Source: Polytrichum commune (lineage: Eukaryota; Streptophyta; Polytrichopsida; Polytrichales; Polytrichaceae). Taken from it: DNA of 64,000 nt. The notes under the pieces were generated by a model that saw nothing but the letters and a program-made list of their open reading frames with translations, was not told the DNA's origin and ran no database searches. Location: the NCBI GenBank assembly GCA_950295325.1, contig OX485805.1:12124501-12188500 (forward strand), in the 5' to 3' direction. Position 1 is the first letter of the stretch. Every line of letters starts with the position of its first letter. The translations under genes were made by a program, and so were the position numbers. Of the stretch, positions 5,085 to 63,911 are shown piece by piece.

Positions 5085-5400
5085 TTAAGATCATCGCCCT
5101 GACAAAGGACCTCTCTCGCGCCCACGAAAGGTTAAAGGCCTCCAACAAACCCTCCTTCGCAATTGAACAAATCTCAATGCATTTAAGAATCCCCACCCAA
5201 GCCGTTTTCACACCAAATATGCATTCACCTCAAATGAGGGTCGTTCACCTTGGAAACATCTCAATGGTTTTGGTTAAACGCGATGTGGTTGTGTTCGATC
5301 CAAATAGTCCACATTATGATTCCCCGAAGGAAGTACCAAATTTCAAACCAAGTTTTTAAATTTCTTCCCGATGTTGTCATCAAAGAGGTTGTGCTTCCAC
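5085..5400 (-). pseudogene. LINE reverse-transcriptase C-terminal relic
   Basis: Minus strand from about 5390 reads LKTWFEIWYFLRGIIMWTIW then IEHNHIAFNQNH, the tail after the zinc-binding region in plant LINE polyproteins (LW-x-IW-x-ERN-x-x-F). The next conserved block, KTAWVGILKCIEI ... FNLSWARERSFV, continues in another frame, with a stop at the junction. Only the last part of the polyprotein remains; no poly(A) tail or target duplication was found. Confidence 0.5.
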
Positions 5401-5665
5401 TCGAGGTGAAGCTCATCACTAACACGAGCATCACTCAACTCCATCGTAATAAAAGGGGTCCAATTCCAATTTCACGCATCATTGAATTTGTGCTTAATGA
5501 TTTTCCAAGTATTGGGTAAGCAAAAAAACGGCATTGACTAGAGATAGTGGTTAGAAAGTTCTTGATGCGCCACTCGTTCATTGCCACAACATGGTACCAA
5601 ACGCATTAGATGAAGGCGACTTCCTTTACCATATCACTTGGGGACTCAAGTGTTGGACCATCTAA

Positions 5666-6004
5666 GGGCCACTTTCACATGCGAGCCAAGTGTTGCGGTC
5701 GTGTAAGTGTGAGGATTCTTGATTCTCATCCAAAGGTTGTATCACTGACATGGTTTGCAGGAATTTGCATCAGGACTATCTTTTGGAGGTGGGCGTGACA
5801 CAAATTTCAGCAGAACATGAAACATTGTTCATTGTTTGCCATGTAGGAATTCATGTGAACGTCTCATCCATGATCATTTCTTTGGGCTCTTAGGTCTTCA
5901 CCACCTAGTGTGAAATGAACTTGGACAGTCTCGTCCTTTCCGACCAACGAGAGATCTTAGAATGCAATGGCCATGGACCTTTCGTGTCATGTGTGAAGTG
6001 GCCC
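5666..6004. mobile_element. Tourist-like MITE, 339 bp
   Basis: The inverted ends GGGCCACTTTCACATGCGAG and CATGTGTGAAGTGGCCC are flanked by TAA on both sides (5663-5665 and 6005-6007). The ends match the family of 1851-2349, but the interior is shorter and diverged. Confidence 0.88.
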
Positions 6005-6481
6005 TAAGCCATAGTTGTCATGAAGAAGTCCACGCCATTTCCGGACCACAAGGCGAGTACAAGGCTCTTCATCTATGAGAAGAGCCTTGCCGATCTTGGT
6101 GACGTAGTCAAGGAACGGGGTCGTGCATGTCCTTCCATGTCCACCTAGACGGATCACATTCAAGGGTAGCGACCTTGACATAGAAAATAGAAATAAAATG
6201 GGCTTTGCTCGGATCCCGCATTGGTACAAATGGAATCCATTCTCCAATTTGGCCAAGCTATATATCCTACTCCCTTTCTCATGTATAACGTGGAGGTTTT
6301 AGGCTCCTAGAGTCACAAACATTTTGAGCCCATAATTGTTTGCGTGGTCTCCCGAAGCGCCACAAAACACTTGGTTTCCACTTGACATTGTGATGTGAGG
6401 TGATTACTCAAAGTATACAACCGCATAGAGGTCCCAAATTGACCACGACGACACTCTTTGTGTTGATCCTCACCATTTTTA

Positions 6482-19224: not shown

Positions 19225-22200
19225 TGAAATTTGAGAAGAGGTTTCCATTAGTTTTTGGTTGTTGGGAATTTGAGATCCAAGATAGTTTTAGTGGTAGCAA
19301 TATGGATGGAGCCTCTTATCCCGACAATGATGATCTTTGGGGGGAGAATTGTCCATCCTTGTTGGGTTAACAAAGGAGAAGTAAGTTGTGTTTTCCTAGT
19401 TTTCTTGTGGTGGCTTCTTGCAGGAATTTATCGTTGTAGTATGTAAACTCAAAGACTTGGATTTTTAGGTTGGGTTCGGTGAGAATGGTGGTTGAGTCAT
19501 GTGCATTGTGCCATGTACGCAAAGAATGTTTGGGCATAGTCGGGTGAGGCATTTACATCTCAGGAGAGATAACATGTGCATGGGAAGGGCCATGAGGGAA
19601 TGGTATTGTTGGGTATTCTATTCTAGTGTTTTCTTGCGTTTATCAATGTGTAATATCTTGTAGTAGGCCAATAGGGTGTTGGCTAGTGCATGTATTGCCT
19701 CAGTGCGCCTATTGGTGCGGAGGTTATTTATGTGTTTATTTATGCAACATGATGGTAGATAAAGGCAGTTGTCATTTTCTTTAATTTGCATAGGTTACAA
19801 AGTGGAGAGATTTTTTTGTTTAAGGATGTGTTTTTTTCGGTAGTTGCCCATGTACTGGCCATAGTGCATCCATGATCCATGGTGCATTCCAAATTAGCTT
19901 AGACCAATTTTAGGTGTAGTTTGTTAGTGGAAAGCCATATTTTTAATATTTGGTATTTTGTTTGAGGCATGTGATATGACCACACTTCGGTATTCTTGTA
20001 ATTTTTTAGGTTTCTAATTAATCCATCATGTTGTGTCAAGGTGGGGGGATGGAGGGCCAAAATGACATTCGGTGGCCTATGAGGAGGCATGGGGTTTCTA
20101 TATTATGGAGTTCTAGTGCTCCTTTTTTGGGCTAGTTTGTTGTTTGCTTTGTTGTTCCATGTGATTTTCGTGTGGGCTTTGATTTTCTAATGGTAACGTT
20201 GTGTGAGGATTTTTTGTGGCATTGATTATGCTCGCAATGAGGAGTTTGTTTGGATGGTCGTTTAATGTGGTTAATTTAAAGGTAGATGTTGTTGAGGCTA
20301 TCTATACATATGAATGTGTTAGTGGTAAGTGACTTGATGTGTTCTATTTGCAATTTGTAGTGCATATAATTATGGTCTAAGATGTTTGGGTGCATGGTAC
20401 TTTGGTGGCCACGTGTACTTGTAATGGGCCATTGAAGACCCATGATTATGCAATGTTTCCATTCCTTTCTATGTCTTGGGGTGTAAAGGAGTTGTATGTG
20501 TGGTATGATTGGTGTGTGTGTGTGTGTGGGGGGGGGGTTGTAGTGTTATGCCGTTCTTTAGAACTTCTAGTGGATGGGGTGTGTAGTCATTGGAAAATGT
20601 GTTGCTGGGTTGTCTAATACTTGGGGGGAGGGAGTGAAGAAAAATTGAGATGCTTATTTGGTTGTGTTTTTTGTGACATGATTACTATTGAGGTGAGGAG
20701 TGGTTCTTTGGTGTTATAGTATGAGGAGAACATGGGTGGTGATGGGTAATGTATTGCTAAAGGGGGAAATGTGATGATAGGTGTTACGTTTGTTTGTTGG
20801 AGTGGGTTAAATGCGTTTTTGTATACAATCACTGTGATTTATGACTAGTGCAGTGGTGGAGTTTGGGTTGGTTTGGGTTGCTACTTTGACCCCTTTTAGA
20901 GCTTTGCATGCGAGTTCTATGTCCCTTAAATGTGTGAGGTTCTACCCATTCCATAGATTTGAGTATGTTGATCCAAGAGAACCAAGGACCTTATTTTTGT
21001 CATGTGGAGAGTGATAATGTATGAATTTGGTGGGGCATGTTAGGGGCTCGAGAAGTAGGAGTGGGTGATTTGAAAGGTGTTGGTGAGGTTGTCTAGTATA
21101 TCCGGGGGGAGGGTTTGGTGGTTGTGGGTGGGCGGGGTAGTACTCTGGGGGTAGTGTGACAAGGTTTTCATGTACTGGTTTATTAGTAAGAGTATTTCCA
21201 TGGTGAAGTCTTGGGGGTTCGTGGTGAGAGGATAAAGGTGTTTGTGGTAATATGTGTGGAGTATCTTTCCCATAGCCATGTGAGTCTTTCAAGTGGGATG
21301 GAGGCTTGCTAGTTGCCTTTGTGGTCATGAATTTGTGTGATGGGTCGAGGGGGGAGGGGGGGTTAGATTTATATTGTGGGTTTGTTGGTGACGATGTCCT
21401 CGTTTGGGTTGCAAGCTTGAATGTTTATATCTAGATGTGGAATTAGTAATGTGGACCATATGTATAGATTGTCAATCATTTGAGGTTTGTTAGTGTGTCT
21501 ATGAGTTTCATTTGTATGGTTTGTTGTTTGGTTTGTTGTACTAGTTGGGTAATGAGTAGTAGGTTGTGTTCGTATAGAAGATTATCGGGATTTAGGATGT
21601 GAGTTTGGGAGAGCCGTTTTGTGAATATGGTTTGTTGGCTAATCCATTGGCATTTGAAGTTGTGTGTGCATATTTTGGCACCCCATTTGTCCTTTTTGAA
21701 TGTTGGTTCACATGCCATTATGTGCATAATGGGGATTCCCATTGGTTGGGTTGGGGTGTTTTGTCTAGTTTGTATGATGAGGGCGGGAGGGGTGGATTCA
21801 TTTTAGTGTTGGGATGGTAGATTTGGGTTCAGGTTGGGGGGAAGAACGCTACATCTTGTACAAGTGCAATTTTGATTATATTGGATTTGGTATTATGTCT
21901 TTGTTGGAATTCTTGAAAGGTTAGAATATGTGTGTTTATGGGGTATGGTATTTCAAGTTAGGATGTTATGTTGAGGGAGGCTAATTTTTTTAGGACTTTT
22001 TTTTGAGTTAGCTTTCTAGTTGGGGTGAGGGTGTTGTAGAAAGGGCTTTTGGACCAATTGTCTTGAAGGAGCGAGTTGTTGAGTCGGAATTTGGTATATA
22101 TTGAGTCGATATGTATTTGATAGTTGTTATCTAGTATTTAAAAGAATCTCGCATGGGGGGGGGGGGTTTGGTGCAAGCTTGTGAGTTGAGGTGTGGGAGG

Positions 22201-46179: not shown

Positions 46180-46205
46180 ATGTGGTAATGTGTGGCGATG
46201 GATGA
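46180..46205 (+). promoter_or_regulatory. Two overlapping mini uORFs before the Dof start
   Basis: ATG TGG TAA at 46180-46188 ends in TAATG, whose ATG (46188) opens a second frame of five codons and a stop (46188-46205). That second frame runs across the Dof ATG at 46198 in another reading frame. Ribosomes using 46188 would terminate just past the real start. The arrangement suggests translational damping of the Dof protein, if the leader contains this stretch, which lies downstream of the proposed intron. Confidence 0.5.
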
Positions 46206-47127
46206 TTCTACGGGCTCAGAGTGGACGATGCTTCCTAGCAGCTCCAACCATGAGCAACAGCAACAACAGCAGCAACAGGAGAAGAAGGCGAGCCAATTAT
46301 TCGCGCAGAGGGCGCTGCAGGAGCGCCGTTTGAAGCCACCCGATCAAGTCATCGCGTGTCCTCGATGTCAATCGTTGAACACTAAGTTCTGCTACTACAA
46401 CAACTACAGCTTAACGCAGCCGCGGCACTTCTGTAAAAGTTGCCGTCGGTACTGGACCGCGGGCGGAACTTTACGTAATGTGCCCGTCGGAGGCGGGTGT
46501 CGGAAGAATAAGAGGACGAAGCCACGCACACCGGATGCGGCTAGTAGCGGCGGTGCTGTAAGCTCAGACAGCGATCATAGCTTATCCGTCGGTCCCGGGT
46601 TACAACATCATCAAGGATTCGGGGGTTCGGGGGGTTACTTGGATTCTAGCGAGGGTTCTTACGCCGGTGTAGAACAATCCGTCCGCGTCACGCAGGACCC
46701 TTCAGGCGAGGGAAGTCTATCCTTCCCGTTTCACCTGAGCCAGCCTACTCCTCTATCTCAGCATATGCACATGCATCCTTTTGAAGCCGGGATTCCGGGC
46801 ATCAACTTTTTTCGAGGTCCACGGCCGGAAACCACGTTAAACTTGCACCCTTCACCCGGGGATTTGAGCTCAATTTTCGACACTTCGAACGTCCCCAGGC
46901 CCGGCGGCTTAACATCATCTCTTAGTGAAGGTCTTGTATCATTCAGTAGTAACCACCCCGGCTACCCCGTCGCCGGCGTGGATCAACAATCATCAACTTA
47001 CGCAGGCTTGGAGGCGTGGAGAGCACACCAGGCGCAGCATCAGCATGCGCATGCGCCGAGTAGTGTTTGGGGAAACGAGGCTATGCAAGGCGAGGTGGAT
47101 ATGAAAAGACAACAGGTCAATTTCTAG
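46198..47127 (+). CDS. Dof-type zinc-finger transcription factor
   Basis: Nuclear DNA-binding protein of the plant Dof family, which binds AAAG-type sites through one C2C2 zinc finger. The ATG at 46198 gives 309 residues; the frame stays open three bases further up only through GTG and GCG codons, so 46198 is the first in-frame ATG. The finger is complete: Cys54, Cys57, Cys79 and Cys82 give CX2CX21CX2C, with [14 protein letters not shown] between the pairs and [14 protein letters not shown] after it. An eight-Gln run lies at residues 20-27 and a His/Gln-rich stretch near the C terminus; the rest is low-complexity Ser/Gly/Pro, usual for the family. The finger tail reads [17 protein letters not shown]: the TAGG is as in cycling Dof factors, the GGGCRKNK as in other Dofs. 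No intron interrupts the coding region. It lies in GC- and CpG-richer DNA unlike its surroundings. The family call is secure; the subgroup and target genes are not. Confidence 0.96.
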
Positions 47128-58428: not shown

Positions 58429-58554
58429 ACCCATTGCCGTGGGTAAGGGACCCTATAACCGCACGACTTCCTTGTATCTCCGTGGAAAGGGGGTCTAAAA
58501 CCATGACTGAGCTCCTAAAGGTTGTGGCCGAGAGCTCCTGACTCTCTTCGGCGT
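58429..58554 (+). pseudogene. Possible upstream exon of the methyltransferase-like relic
   Basis: After CTACACTAAG, an open frame reads ADGDPLPWVRDPITARLPC and continues about 20 more residues to a stop. Composition is coding-like against AT-rich surroundings. Its position fits an earlier exon, but I cannot fix a donor or show homology. Confidence 0.25.
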
Positions 58555-58724
58555 TCTTCTTCGTTCTTCTTCATGAATTTTTCCTTGCTCTTGGATGCTT
58601 GGTGATTAAGTGCCGTTGGGCACTTCCTTCTCTTTCAAATTGTTGTCATTTTCTCTTGATAGTGTTGTGACTCAACATTCAACAATTGGATTCTTATATT
58701 TTTCTTTGGATTTTTTATTTCCAG

Positions 58725-60050
58725 GCAGGTGGGAACGGGTCGTATTCGTCCTAATACCAAGCCTAAGGTGTACACATGGCTTGATCTACTCTTCGCAGAT
58801 GTGCCGGAGAACCTCTGTGTATCGGGCATCTCGTCATCATCGTCCGATGTTCCTCAATGGAACAAGCGTTCTTCCTCTTACTTTGAGGTTCTCTTTGCCT
58901 TTGCTAACGCCAACCTTCATGACGATGGCGTTCTTGTCTTTGCACACACCGCCGATCATGACGTGTCTAGATGCATATTTAACTAGGCACATACAGAGGA
59001 CTTGTTTGGCATGAATGACCTCGATTTCCAATCGCCTACTAATTCAGCGGATTTGGTAATTCTTTTCTTGCCTCATCCATTTGTATTCTATATTTTTTCC
59101 CTTGCATTTTTGTATTCCTAATTCTACCCTTTTCATTTCTTGCAGACTTGCAAGTTCTTCATCAAGGTTCTCGTGCGCAATGATTCTGTTTTGAATGTCC
59201 GGACCTCGGACTTCGAAGACATGGGTTACAATTTCAAGAGAGATGGTTGGCTCAACAGCTTCGCCGATGTCAAGAACCAGTCGATGAGGGAAGACGCGAT
59301 CCCTTGGAGAGCTGCTCGTAAAAAACGCCCCGAGTTCTTCTCCATCATTTTTTCCGCCCTCACGGATAAGGATGACATTATCATGGATTGGCAATGTGGC
59401 TTTGGTTGGTTTTTCTTCTCTTTGTTTTTTATTGTTTTGCTTTGTTTTTTACTTGTTTCATTTCCCATTCATTCTCTTATGCTCATCTTTTCACATTTCG
59501 TTTTTCTAGGAGGTTTTCTCATTGCATGTCGTTCCATTCAACGCCATATTGTGGCGCTTGAGTCGGATATCGACATCTTCAAGTCCATCCTCCTCCCCAT
59601 GCGTGAGACTGAGCAAGAACACATTTCTCAGCATGCTGCCCCACAACGAGGATCGGTTTTTGCTCCTCCTCTCCGGAAGATGGCGAAGCGCAATTTCGAT
59701 TTGCTGTGTGCGTAAGTTTATTTTTGGCTTCTTACTTGCTTGCTTGCATTTCTATCTTCTCGGATCGGACTTTTTGGCTTCTGCTCATTTTTTTTTGTTT
59801 TTTCGTCCTACATGTGCAGAGTTCAAAATGAGAGCCCATTCGTATCCTTAATGTGGACATGTTTGCAACCCCTTCGACAACCTTCAAGCTCCCTTCGTAT
59901 GTTGCTGACCTTGCCCATCTTTTGGCGAAAGCACCATCCCCACCTCCTAGTCGCACCCGCCCTCTCAACAAAGTAGTATTGGATTTCCTAGACCTAGAGG
60001 CCGAGCAGGGCAAGGATAGTGATAGACATGGTAGTTCTAGTTGTTGACTA
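58725..60050 (+). pseudogene. Relic of an N4/N6 DNA methyltransferase-like gene, four exons
   Basis: Four coding stretches are joined by GT-AG introns whose phases agree: 58725-59055, 59146-59404, 59510-59711 and 59820 onward; introns are 90, 105 and 108 bases. Exon 1 has FEVLFAFANANLHDDGVLVF, like the helix and strand after the catalytic motif of permuted N4/N6 amino-methyltransferases. Exons 2-3 give MDWQCGFGGFLIACRS then RHIVALESDIDIF, the expected layout of the SAM-binding motif (D-x-x-x-G-x-G) and the acidic end of the next strand. A D/S/N-PP-Y/F catalytic motif is not visible and would lie upstream. Exon 1 carries an in-frame TAG at 58984, and in exon 4 the likely reading (LPSYVADLAHLLAKAPSPPP) is in another frame than exon 3 predicts. 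It is therefore probably dead. It could be a host gene or a transposon-borne one. Confidence 0.5.
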
Positions 60051-60218
60051 CGCCTCGTGCGTTTGGAACCCCAATCTCCTATGTATTTTTTTATGTTTGA
60101 CTTATTTATAAGTTCATTTGTTGAATTTCCATTTCCCTTTTTCAAACCACATTTAACTCCATCATCTTACGTGTTTTTTTGCTTTCAATTGCTCTTTCAA
60201 TTACTGTTTCTTTTGGTT

Positions 60219-61672
60219 TGGTTATAATCTTCTAGTTCAAGTGTTGGACAATGTAGGGAACCTCTCGGTTCCGAGAGGGTCCAGGAGTGTGGTGTATGTA
60301 CCAGAATTTTTCTTGTCAAGGTAGGCCGACTTGGATGGCTTTTATGTTTTTTTGGTTGGGTGTATATATTCTAGTTGAGGGGTTGGAGTATGTGGGGACC
60401 CTCTCAGTTCCGAGAGGGTCCAGAAGTGGGGGGTATGCACCAGATTTCTGCTTGTCAATGTAGGCCAACTTGGATGGCTTTTATGTTTTTTTGGTTGGGT
60501 GTATATATTCTAGTTGAGGGGTTGGAGTATGTGGGGACCCTCTCGGTTCCGAGAGGGTCCAGAAGTGGGGTGTATGCACCAGATTTTTGCTTGTCAATGT
60601 AGGCCAACTTGGATGGCTTTTATGTTTTTTTGGTTGGGTGTATATATTCTAGTTGAGGGGTTGGAGTATGTGGGGACCCTCTCGGTTCCGAGAGGGTCCA
60701 GAAGTGGGGGGTATGCACCAGATTTTTGCTTGTCAAGGTAGGCCAACTTGGATGGCTTTTATGTTTTTTTGGTTGGGTGTATATATTCTAGTTGAGGGGT
60801 TGGAGTATGTGGGGACCCTCTCGGTTCCGAGAGGGTCCAAAAGTGGGGTGTATGCACCAGATTTTTGCTTGTCAATGTAGGCCAACTTGGATGGCTTTTA
60901 TGTTTTTTTGGTTGGGTGTATATATTCTAGTTGAGGGGTTGGAGTATGTGGGGACCCTCTCGGTTCCGAGAGGGTCCAAAAGTGGGGTGTATGCACCAGA
61001 TTTTTGCTTGTCAATGTAGGCCAACTTGGATGGCTTTTATGTTTTTTTGGTTGGGTGTATATATTCTAGTTGAGGGGTTGGAGTATGTGGGGACCCTCTC
61101 GGTTCCAAGAGGGTCCAGAAGTGGGGTGTATGCACCAGATTTTTGCTTGCCAATGTAGGCCAACTTGGATGGCTTTTATGTTTTTTTGGTTGGGTGTATA
61201 TATTCTAGTTGAGGGGTTGGAGTATGTGGGGACCCTCTCGGTTCCGAGAGGGTCCAGAAGTGGGGGGTATGCACCAGATTTTTGCTTGTCAAGGTAGGCC
61301 TACTTGGATGGCTTTCATGTTTTTTTGGTTGGGTGTATATATTCTAGTTGAGGGGTTGGAGTATGTGGGGACCCTCTCGGTTCCGAGAGGGTCCAGAAGT
61401 GGGGTGTATGCACCAGATTTTTGCTTGTCAAGGTAGGCCAACTTGGATGGCTTTTATGTTTTTTTGGTTGGGTGTATATATTCTAGTTGAGGGGTTGGAG
61501 TATGTGGGGACCCTCTCGGTTCCGAGAGGGTCCAGAAGTGGGGTGTATGCACCAGATTTTTGCTTGTCAAGGTAGGCCAACTTGGATGGCTTTTATGTTT
61601 TTTTGGTTGGGTGTATATATTCTAGTTGAGGGGTTGGAGTATGTGGGGACCCTCTCGGTTCCGAGAGGGTCC
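60219..61672. repeat. 139-bp tandem array with palindromic core
   Basis: Eleven near-palindromes lie exactly 139 bases apart, at 60257, 60396, 60535, 60674, 60813, 60952, 61091, 61230, 61369, 61508 and 61647. Each is GGACCCTCTCGG, TT, then CCGAGAGGGTCC; eight of eleven are perfect. Units also share GCACCAGATTTTTGCTTGTC and TTTTTTTGGTTGGGTGTATA. The first unit is more diverged than the middle ones, as expected when unequal exchange homogenises a centre. Because 139 is one more than a multiple of three, open frames of 75 codons recur in each unit in rotating phase; these are repeat artefacts. Confidence 0.97.
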
Positions 61673-62086
61673 ACGGGTTCAGGTATGTACCACATTTTTG
61701 CTTGTCAAGATAGGCCTTGTGGAGGGGTTGTAGAATGTTTGTGGTGTCTACACAAGTTGGGGTTAAGGGGTTCAACCTTTTTTGGTTGGGTTCATTTTTA
61801 TCGAGTTAAGGGGTTGGACTATGTAGTGACCCTCTCCTAACTATGGGTTGGGGGGATGCACCAGATTTTTGCTTGTCAAGATAGGCCCACTACGAGCGCT
61901 ATAATATTTTTTTGGTTGGGTTTATATCTTCTAGTTAAGGGCTTGCACTATGTGTGGAGGGTATGCACCAGATTTTTGCTTGTCAAGATAGGCCTACTTT
62001 GTGGAAGATTTGGTAGTTAGTGACTTTGCTTTCTCACTACATAGGGTAGGTAGTTTGTGGTCATTGCACCAGATTTTGCATGTGGC
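61673..62086. repeat. Decayed edge of the 139-bp array
   Basis: Recognisable pieces of the unit continue with indels: GCACCAGATTTTTGCTTGTC at 61857 and 61966, TTTTTTTGGTTGGGT at 61905, a broken palindrome (GACCCTCTCC) near 61827, and GCACCAGATTTTGC at 62066. Spacing is no longer regular. Confidence 0.85.
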
Positions 62087-63281: not shown

Positions 63282-63510
63282 ATTATAGTCATACTTATTA
63301 AGATTGCATCCCCCACTCAAGTTAAGATTCACCCCATTAATTTGGGGTAATCCAATCAAATATTCAACCCATAATGTTTGCCTCCACGTGCACCCTTTTC
63401 ACATTCGACGACTTCCTATCCCAAATGCTATATAACAAATGCAGGTTTTGGTTAGGCCTCTCTCGGCCACATTTGACAAAGGTTGCATTCTTGATTTCAG
63501 GTGTGTCTCT

Positions 63511-63911
63511 TCGGCCCCTCACACCAGATTCTCCTCTTGTTTTGTGTTAAACAATGTGTATAATTTAAGGGTCTAAAATTCTAATGGGCTTGAGGATTCG
63601 GCCCCTCACACCAGATTCTCCTCTTGTTTTGTGTTTGACAATGTGTATAATCTAAGGGTCTAAAATTCTAATGGGCTTGAGGATTCAGCCCCTTACACCA
63701 GATTCTCCTCTTGTTTTGTGTTAAACAATGTGTGTAATCTAAGGGTCGATTTGTAATGGGCTTGAGGTTTCGGCCCCTCACACCAGATTCTCCTCTTGTT
63801 TTGTGTTTGACAATGTGTGTAATCTAAGGGTCTAAAATTCTAATGGCTTGAGGATTCGGCCCCTCACACCAGATTCTCCTCTTGTTTTGTGTTTGACAAT
63901 GTGTGTAATGG
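63511..63911. repeat. 85-87-bp tandem array, about 4.6 units
   Basis: Units begin TCGGCCCCTCACACCAGATT at 63511, 63598, 63685, 63770 and 63856 (spacings 87, 87, 85, 86) and share CTCCTCTTGTTTTGTG and AATGTGTRTAAT. The last copy breaks off near 63911. CACCAGATT plus a following CTTGT also occurs in the 139-bp unit, so the two arrays may share an ancestor. Confidence 0.93.

Follow-up and report, generated by a model that had tools for sequence, protein, structure and literature searches.

The window, a stretch of 64,000 nucleotides from the moss Polytrichum commune, carries towards its 3′ end four forward-strand exons that join in phase at 58729-60047, accompanied by two tandem arrays and by non-coding DNA that continues beyond the window. 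Together these features represent a 5′-truncated, dead fragment of a transposon accessory gene, of which intact copies are present elsewhere in the genome. Gene copies were assigned to three classes, A (window-like), B and C (young), and the exons listed below are numbered according to the intact gene, which has ten.

58678..58728, + strand: remnant of intron 6; similarity to relatives begins here (blastn), marking the 5′ truncation point
58729..59055, + strand: exon 7 (motif IV region, LLFADVPEN), with an in-frame stop codon (58984-58986) and an in-frame deletion of 18 bp
59056..59145, + strand: intron 7, 90 bp, GT-AG, phase 0 on both sides
59146..59404, + strand: exon 8, spanning a target-recognition-like stretch and motif X and ending halfway through motif I
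59405..59509, + strand: intron 8, 105 bp, GT-AG; class B copies have no intron at exactly this site
59510..59711, + strand: exon 9, which completes motif I and includes motif II
59712..59819, + strand: intron 9, 108 bp, GT-AG
59820..60047, + strand: exon 10 with the stop codon; frameshifting 1-bp deletion near 59834
60205..61716, no strand: tandem array with a 139-bp unit repeated 10.9 times; the units contain a palindrome whose core CTCGGTTCCGAG is exact in nine units
63510..63909, no strand: further tandem array with an 87-bp unit, belonging to the window copy; one unit matches the 85-bp array of class A copy L025
63950..64000, no strand: 3′ non-coding part of the window copy, which extends beyond the window as far as its 3′ terminus, C3:12189341 (blastn to L025)

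Blastn alignments of the window copy to four relatives (L021, L022, L023 and L027) begin at 58678 with 87% identity, and the copy is 87-88% identical to them. The sequence-only reading had described a decayed gene of four exons at 58429..60050. This extent holds from 58677/58678 onwards, whereas 58429-58677 bears no similarity to the relatives fetched; the exons are real, phase-consistent and bordered by GT-AG introns, but they are exons 7-10 of a ten-exon gene rather than exons 1-4. The stop that it placed in its first exon is present at 58984-58986, and L021 has a stop at the same codon, while the frame change in its last exon, early in exon 10, proved to be a 1-bp deletion when compared with four relatives. 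Decay was thus read correctly from both lesions, and the feature is almost certainly a decayed transposon gene. The window copy lacks exons 1-6 as well as the transposase and the element's 5′ end, and those class C protein parts other than exons 7-10 that were tried gave no match within the window at E<=1e-3.

The D-x-x-x-G-x-G SAM (AdoMet) motif recognised earlier was recovered as DWQCGFG (DWQCGFGG), interrupted by the 105-bp intron 8, through which the reading frame remains open in the window copy. Intron retention as the normal state of the gene was considered and rejected: intron 8 is exactly missing in class B, and intron 7 of class C measures 106 bp. The precise absence of intron 8 in class B copies at the window's junction provides natural evidence for a true intron and, along with the GT-AG borders, supports the proposed spliceosomal introns.

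The tail of the window copy matches L025 at 63308-63426, in the array unit at 63592-63661 and from 63950 onwards (blastn, E down to 4e-116), and the matches at E 6e-65 and 4e-116 span the window's end. The 3′ end of the copy lies at C3:12189324-12189341, 0.84 kb past the window. Aligned without gaps, its last 18 bases show as many as five differences from the class C end, and over the 89 bases before them identity to the corresponding class C region is 98.9% (E 5e-36).

The transposon family and its second gene

A search of the moss genome (407.8 Mb, nearly all of it in seven contigs of 42-78 Mb) returned at least 245 matched pieces; 150 of the 1063 candidates were scored, and a single gene copy can yield two pieces. 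A rare, single nuclear gene was rejected as a reading; the gene belongs to a large repeat family and is a high-copy transposon gene. The search for intact paralogues and for a transposon location, which had been proposed as a check, succeeded on both counts, with intact copies found inside DNA transposons. For closer comparison, 20 stretches of 10 kb around gene copies (L009-L028) were hand-picked from the matches listed. As a separate observation, the region of C4 at ~41.7-59 Mb holds many listed gene copies and palindrome sites, and is possibly a pericentromeric or non-recombining region.

Four class C copies (L010, L011, L014 and L015) show 99.2-99.5% identity to L009 across ~6.5 kb, all stopping at the same base, and addition of the 5′ side of two copies bounded a young element of ~16.6-16.7 kb. 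Its ends, GGACGACACTTG on the 5′ side and GAGTTTCCC on the 3′ side, are flanked on each side by 10-bp target duplications. Among 12 end pairs, ten of which were chosen among plus-strand pairs with 0-1 mismatches, the duplicated 10 bp are identical in 11, and the remaining pair agrees at nine of ten bases; the elements with checked end pairs include a class A-like one (C1:46106086-46119708) and a class B one (C1:36367933-36383397). In the terminal inverted repeats, 41 of the 42 columns aligned inward from position 12 agree, and the outermost 11 bases differ.

Genome-wide, the terminal 21-mers occur 250 times (5′) and 117 times (3′) at up to two mismatches, and the reversed patterns do not occur at all. 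When the 77 exact 5′ ends among 100 listed were paired with 100 listed 3′ ends, 46 had a 3′ end on the same strand at a distance of 8-32 kb (median 16.7 kb), compared with 0 of 77 on the opposite strand. Set against 84 listed methyltransferase-exon places and 69 listed transposase places (a hand count), 44 of these 46 paired elements contain a transposase place and 26 a methyltransferase exon; where both listed genes lie in one paired element, they are on opposite strands in 25 of 25 cases. A recurrent GGACGAGACTT variant was also observed among the 5′ ends, which, with the excess of 5′ over 3′ ends, suggests the existence of shorter derivatives having only the 5′ end in common.

Of 1634 candidates for the transposase core, the 150 that were scored matched, including 19 identical ones (own locus included). 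By eye, the protein shows a DDE pattern like that of RNase H, along with a C-x-C...C-x-H stretch, and no Pfam transposase or SWIM profile matched the element's open reading frames at E<=10 or pieces of them at E<=5. Since no such profile matched, the Mutator-like label rests on the 10-bp duplications, which fall within the 8-11 bp of Mutator-like elements, and on the terminal inverted repeats, the MULE/SWIM profile being the one hallmark not found. Three more open reading frames of 151-173 aa occupy the 5′ half of the young element (L029, + strand, 805-1290, 5393-5845 and 5946-6464), the first of which had no Pfam match above a cut-off.

On the strand opposite the transposase, class C elements carry the second gene, with ten exons and a product of 1041 aa (a ~1040-aa protein). 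Eight class C copies were examined. In five of them (L010, L011, L013, L014 and L015) the frame is fully open and all nine introns are GT-AG; the frame of L009 is also open, but this copy has lost one intron donor, at the end of exon 4, which is kept in the seven other copies, while L012 and L016 are broken. In exons 7-9, dN/dS is 0.07-0.21 in the eight of ten pairs with computable dS, where dS is saturated in two pairs, exceeds 1 in three of the other eight and is near saturation for several. These ratios indicate purifying selection on the domain encoded by exons 7-9. Mutator-like elements are known for capturing gene pieces, and the gene might accordingly be a passively captured host gene that hitch-hikes on the element; however, low dN/dS between element lineages and open frames in six of eight young copies make such an origin hardly credible.

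Class B, judged from L018 and L020, is by sequence comparison a chimera, with exons 1-5 resembling class A and exons 6-9 resembling class C. Between L009 (class C) and L018, dN is 0.073 and dS 0.454 in exons 7-9, and dS is saturated in exons 1-5; between L018 and L028 (class A), dN is 0.123 in exons 2-5 and 0.299 in exons 7-9.

The methyltransferase-type domain

The sequence-only reading had proposed a permuted amino-methyltransferase and a check against PF01555. Pfam returned nothing for exons 7-9 of the window copy at E<=10, and the best relative reached 14.3 bits (E 0.039), below the PF01555 cut-off of 26.7 bits; at E<=1, this profile was matched by two of the eight members of the exon 7-9 set. 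The whole 1041-aa protein had no Pfam match at E<=5 and a single NCBIfam match at E<=5, to CcrM (E 0.04). Other profile searches with the window copy pointed to PHROGs methyltransferases (E 0.009 and 0.024) and, in the PDB, to DpnA (E 0.022). With an eight-member profile of spliced exons 7-9, DpnA ranked first in the PDB (E 0.0069), and individual members matched PHROGs methyltransferase family 18293 (8/8, best E 1.5e-4) and DNA methyltransferase family 3008 (7/8).

Furthermore, a 12-row profile of the element proteins was aligned by hhalign with 11 phage amino-methyltransferases; the alignment extends over 63 residues, which include motifs X, I and II, and has a score of 43.0 and a probability of 82.9, compared with a mean of 14.8 (sd 2.6, maximum 22.0) in 60 column shuffles. 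Both this alignment and the DpnA match recover AdoMet motif I with motif X just upstream. The N-terminal half of the domain scored 13.4 against a mean of 12.1 (sd 2.2, maximum 18.6) in 60 shuffles; hhalign paired LDLLFADIPENL with VDLILADPPYGI at the expected place in this half, with a score inside the shuffle range, and the order IV-TRD-X-I fits by eye. The part encoded by exons 7-9 is very probably a METHYLTRANSFERASE-like, methyltransferase-type domain, and the C-terminal third of the protein appears related to permuted (beta-class) DNA amino-methyltransferases, the likeness residing in the AdoMet region. A relic of another Rossmann methyltransferase, for instance an RNA methyltransferase of the TRM5 type, is a very unlikely alternative source: a TRM5-TYW2 profile did match one relative at E 0.093, beside PF01555 at 0.039, whereas the best PDB and NCBIfam matches are DNA amino-methyltransferases, those in PHROGs are (DNA) methyltransferases, and the motif order IV-X-I suits the permuted class.

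Motif IV reads D[IV]PEN in most copies read, across all three classes, with the single-copy variants LLFANVPEN (L027), DISEN (L017) and DIPKN (L003), and [DNS]PP[YFW] was found in none of them. In the 11 phage enzymes it reads DPPY in eight and DPPF, DFPY and DPIY in one each, so that the first proline varies and the aromatic residue is constant. Because the D[IV]PEN form extends through all three classes, the protein seems more likely to bind AdoMet or DNA, its catalysis lost or altered, than to act as an ordinary N6A/N4C methylase, and an ordinary active methylase without reservation was rejected on motif IV. It is unlikely that the protein is an active N6A or N4C DNA methyltransferase that writes its mark on the arrays and uses D[IV]PEN as a catalytic motif of an unusual kind. 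The AdoMet motif and motif X are kept across lineages that are 64-65% identical, constraint is strong, the first proline of motif IV also varies among the phage relatives, and published algal relatives have been suggested, in the portion of the text available, to modify their own transposon (PMC12477816), all of which would suit such an enzyme. Conversely, the aromatic residue absent here is kept in all 11 phage relatives, and rotifer N4CMT, according to the available part of its description, loses activity when the Ser and Tyr of its SPPY motif are changed (PMC8885841).

Structure prediction and wider searches added little to this assignment. AlphaFold modelled the methyltransferase part with a pLDDT of 39 and no residue at or above 70, from a shallow alignment whose first row contained an in-frame intron, and Foldseek gave no usable match. 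Scanning GTDB with the domain profile yielded 164 pattern matches, none confirmed, and IMG/VR yielded one locus from 114 candidates. The ParB fusion of this locus does not constitute independent support, since FYVAED, one of the two search patterns, is encoded on the opposite strand and probably matched by chance.

At the N-terminus, the exon 1 stretch GKMFFVWEGNHRLTAWWRH (the EGNHRLTAW stretch) resembles, by eye, the ParB/sulfiredoxin motif. Pfam, PDB, PHROGs and profile comparison gave no support for this likeness. The hhalign score for a ParB-like N-terminal domain was 12.1, compared with a mean of 10.3 (sd 1.9, maximum 15.0) in 40 shuffles, and in a second test it was 12.3, against six controls that scored up to 23.0. 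AlphaFold, again from a shallow alignment, modelled exon 1 with a pLDDT of 49.5 and no residue at or above 70, Foldseek gave no usable fold match, and none of 50 IMG/VR candidates was confirmed. A ParB-type N-terminus is retained as a lead, since exactly this pairing of ParB and methyltransferase is present, as far as the available description goes, in a transposon protein published from a brown alga.

Palindromic arrays and the proposed role of the protein

The palindromic array had been regarded as a neighbour of the gene; it is real, and it belongs to the same element. The core CTCGGNNCCGAG occurs 7400 times genome-wide, against 154 for the reversed control, and 206 times in the 20 gene-anchored 10-kb stretches, i.e., 10.3 per 10 kb against 0.18 genome-wide, a ~57-fold enrichment around gene copies. 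Sixteen of the 20 loci contain at least five core motifs. The 25-base palindrome of the window, at up to two mismatches, was counted 1261 times on the forward and 1131 times on the reverse strand, where one site may score on both strands, and its reversed pattern was not found. The arrays belong to the elements.

Array position and unit length vary among copies: 139-bp arrays occur at two places in class A copy L027, one within intron 4 and one downstream of the gene, class C elements have units of 127 bp and longer between the transposase and the second gene, and the units of L025, L026 and L020 measure 85, 81 and 139 bp, respectively. The palindrome arms differ as well (CCTCTCGG-AA-CCGAGAGG, GGTCTCGG-AT-CCGAGACC and GGCCTCGG-AT-CCGAGGCC), with the core CTCGGNNCCGAG common to all. 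The chimeric L020 carries a class A-type array in intron 4, beside its class A-like exons 1-5, an agreement that linkage alone can explain because the array sits among those exons. The core is missing from L017, L018 and L019, and class A L028 has one; since three of the four class B copies thus keep the gene without the palindrome, the palindrome is not indispensable. A different pair of palindromes, ACTTCCATCCATGGAAGT and CGCTGTCCCGGGACAGCG, recurs 475 bp apart at L012:3119/3594, L013:6095/6570 and L020:7480/7955, and is probably another small repeat inserted in these elements.

We consider it reasonably probable that the window gene is a decayed accessory gene of a Mutator-like transposon family, and that its protein was a VANC-like factor on the family's own arrays. 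Under this model, the protein, a factor built from a phage-type methyltransferase, would recognise the palindromic arrays of its own transposon family, and once bound would alter chromatin or DNA modification there. Such modification would keep the transposase expressed, making the protein a self-targeted anti-silencing or marking factor comparable to VANC. Action on the family's own arrays, taken by itself and by analogy, is plausible but tentative.

The protein could instead aid transposition, for example by binding the ends or subterminal repeats with the transposase, with the arrays being by-products of slippage in non-coding DNA. The opposite orientation of the two listed genes in all 25 paired elements that hold both is compatible with such a role, as are the class B copies L017-L019, whose arrays lack the palindrome; yet the same core recurs with differing arms, centres and unit lengths across lineages, which would be unexpected from plain slippage, and we regard this alternative as rather doubtful. 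Returning to the VANC-like factor, a more far-reaching version, which we offer as speculative, is a self-contained epigenetic system of a plant transposon, in which a derivative of a phage-type methyltransferase with a re-tooled D[IV]PEN site would read or mark its own palindromic arrays, array and protein would diversify in each lineage, and the VANC-VANDAL strategy would have been invented independently.

Relation to known systems and further observations in the window

Sola elements generate 4-bp target duplications. In Ectocarpus, Sola1-1_Ec32 encodes a 1104-aa transposon accessory protein with ParB-like and DNA methyltransferase parts, and, in the text available, ParB-methyltransferase transposon proteins are said to occur also in green and red algae and are proposed as possible binders and modifiers of their own transposon (PMC12477816). 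The moss family resembles these elements, so far as that text describes them, in the large element, the ~1050-aa protein, the gene opposite the transposase and the N4/N6-type domain. Unlike them, with the algal proteins compared by description only, it has 10-bp duplications, a plant host, the D[IV]PEN motif IV and palindromic arrays.

In Arabidopsis, VANC proteins bind short motifs that build up as tandem repeats in introns and non-coding parts and diverge fast (PMC5735166; PMC10398659). VANDAL/VANC, as the available portions of these papers present it, shares with the present family a DNA transposon with an accessory gene, a short motif in non-coding tandem arrays and subfamily diversification. 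The VANC21 and VANC6 motifs (YAGTATTAY; AGTTGTCC and AGTTGTAC) differ in being, in our reading, non-palindromic, and VANC, unlike the present protein, is described in the text seen without mention of a methyltransferase ancestry (PMC5735166; PMC10398659).

The N4CMT of bdelloid rotifers, a host gene with SPPY and a chromodomain for which 4mC activity has been shown, is likewise a permuted amino-methyltransferase of bacterial type that has long resided in a eukaryote, and is linked, in the part of the text available, to transposon silencing (PMC8885841). The phage amino-methyltransferases (L035 and L038-L047) align with the element protein over the 63-residue motif X-I-II region, and seven of the 11 have a long N-terminal part (partly ParB-like), the others being stand-alone. 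They differ from the present gene in being single open reading frames of 221-463 aa with a DPPY-type motif IV.

Marchantia has an N4-cytosine methyltransferase. Searches of the open PMC literature listed no land-plant case of a transposon-borne methyltransferase, nor any paper with a title devoted to the Marchantia enzyme. ParB-methyltransferase accessory proteins are already known from brown, green and red algal transposons, according to the description available; as far as searches of the open PMC literature show, the plant host, the element with 10-bp duplications, the change in motif IV and the association with arrays are new. Bacterial-type methyltransferase proteins on transposons now extend from algae to a plant, with palindromic arrays as a concrete candidate target of the protein. 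Additionally, self-targeting can be tested on natural material, which comprises copies both intact and decayed, an altered motif IV and a natural chimera.

Two other features of the window were recorded. An open reading frame for a Dof zinc-finger transcription factor, a family characteristic of green plants, lies at 46189-47127 on the + strand (PF02701, E 6.7e-34), and the segment at 20001-22000, far from the gene copy, exhibits a very strong strand asymmetry, with a GC skew of +0.55 and an AT skew of -0.32.
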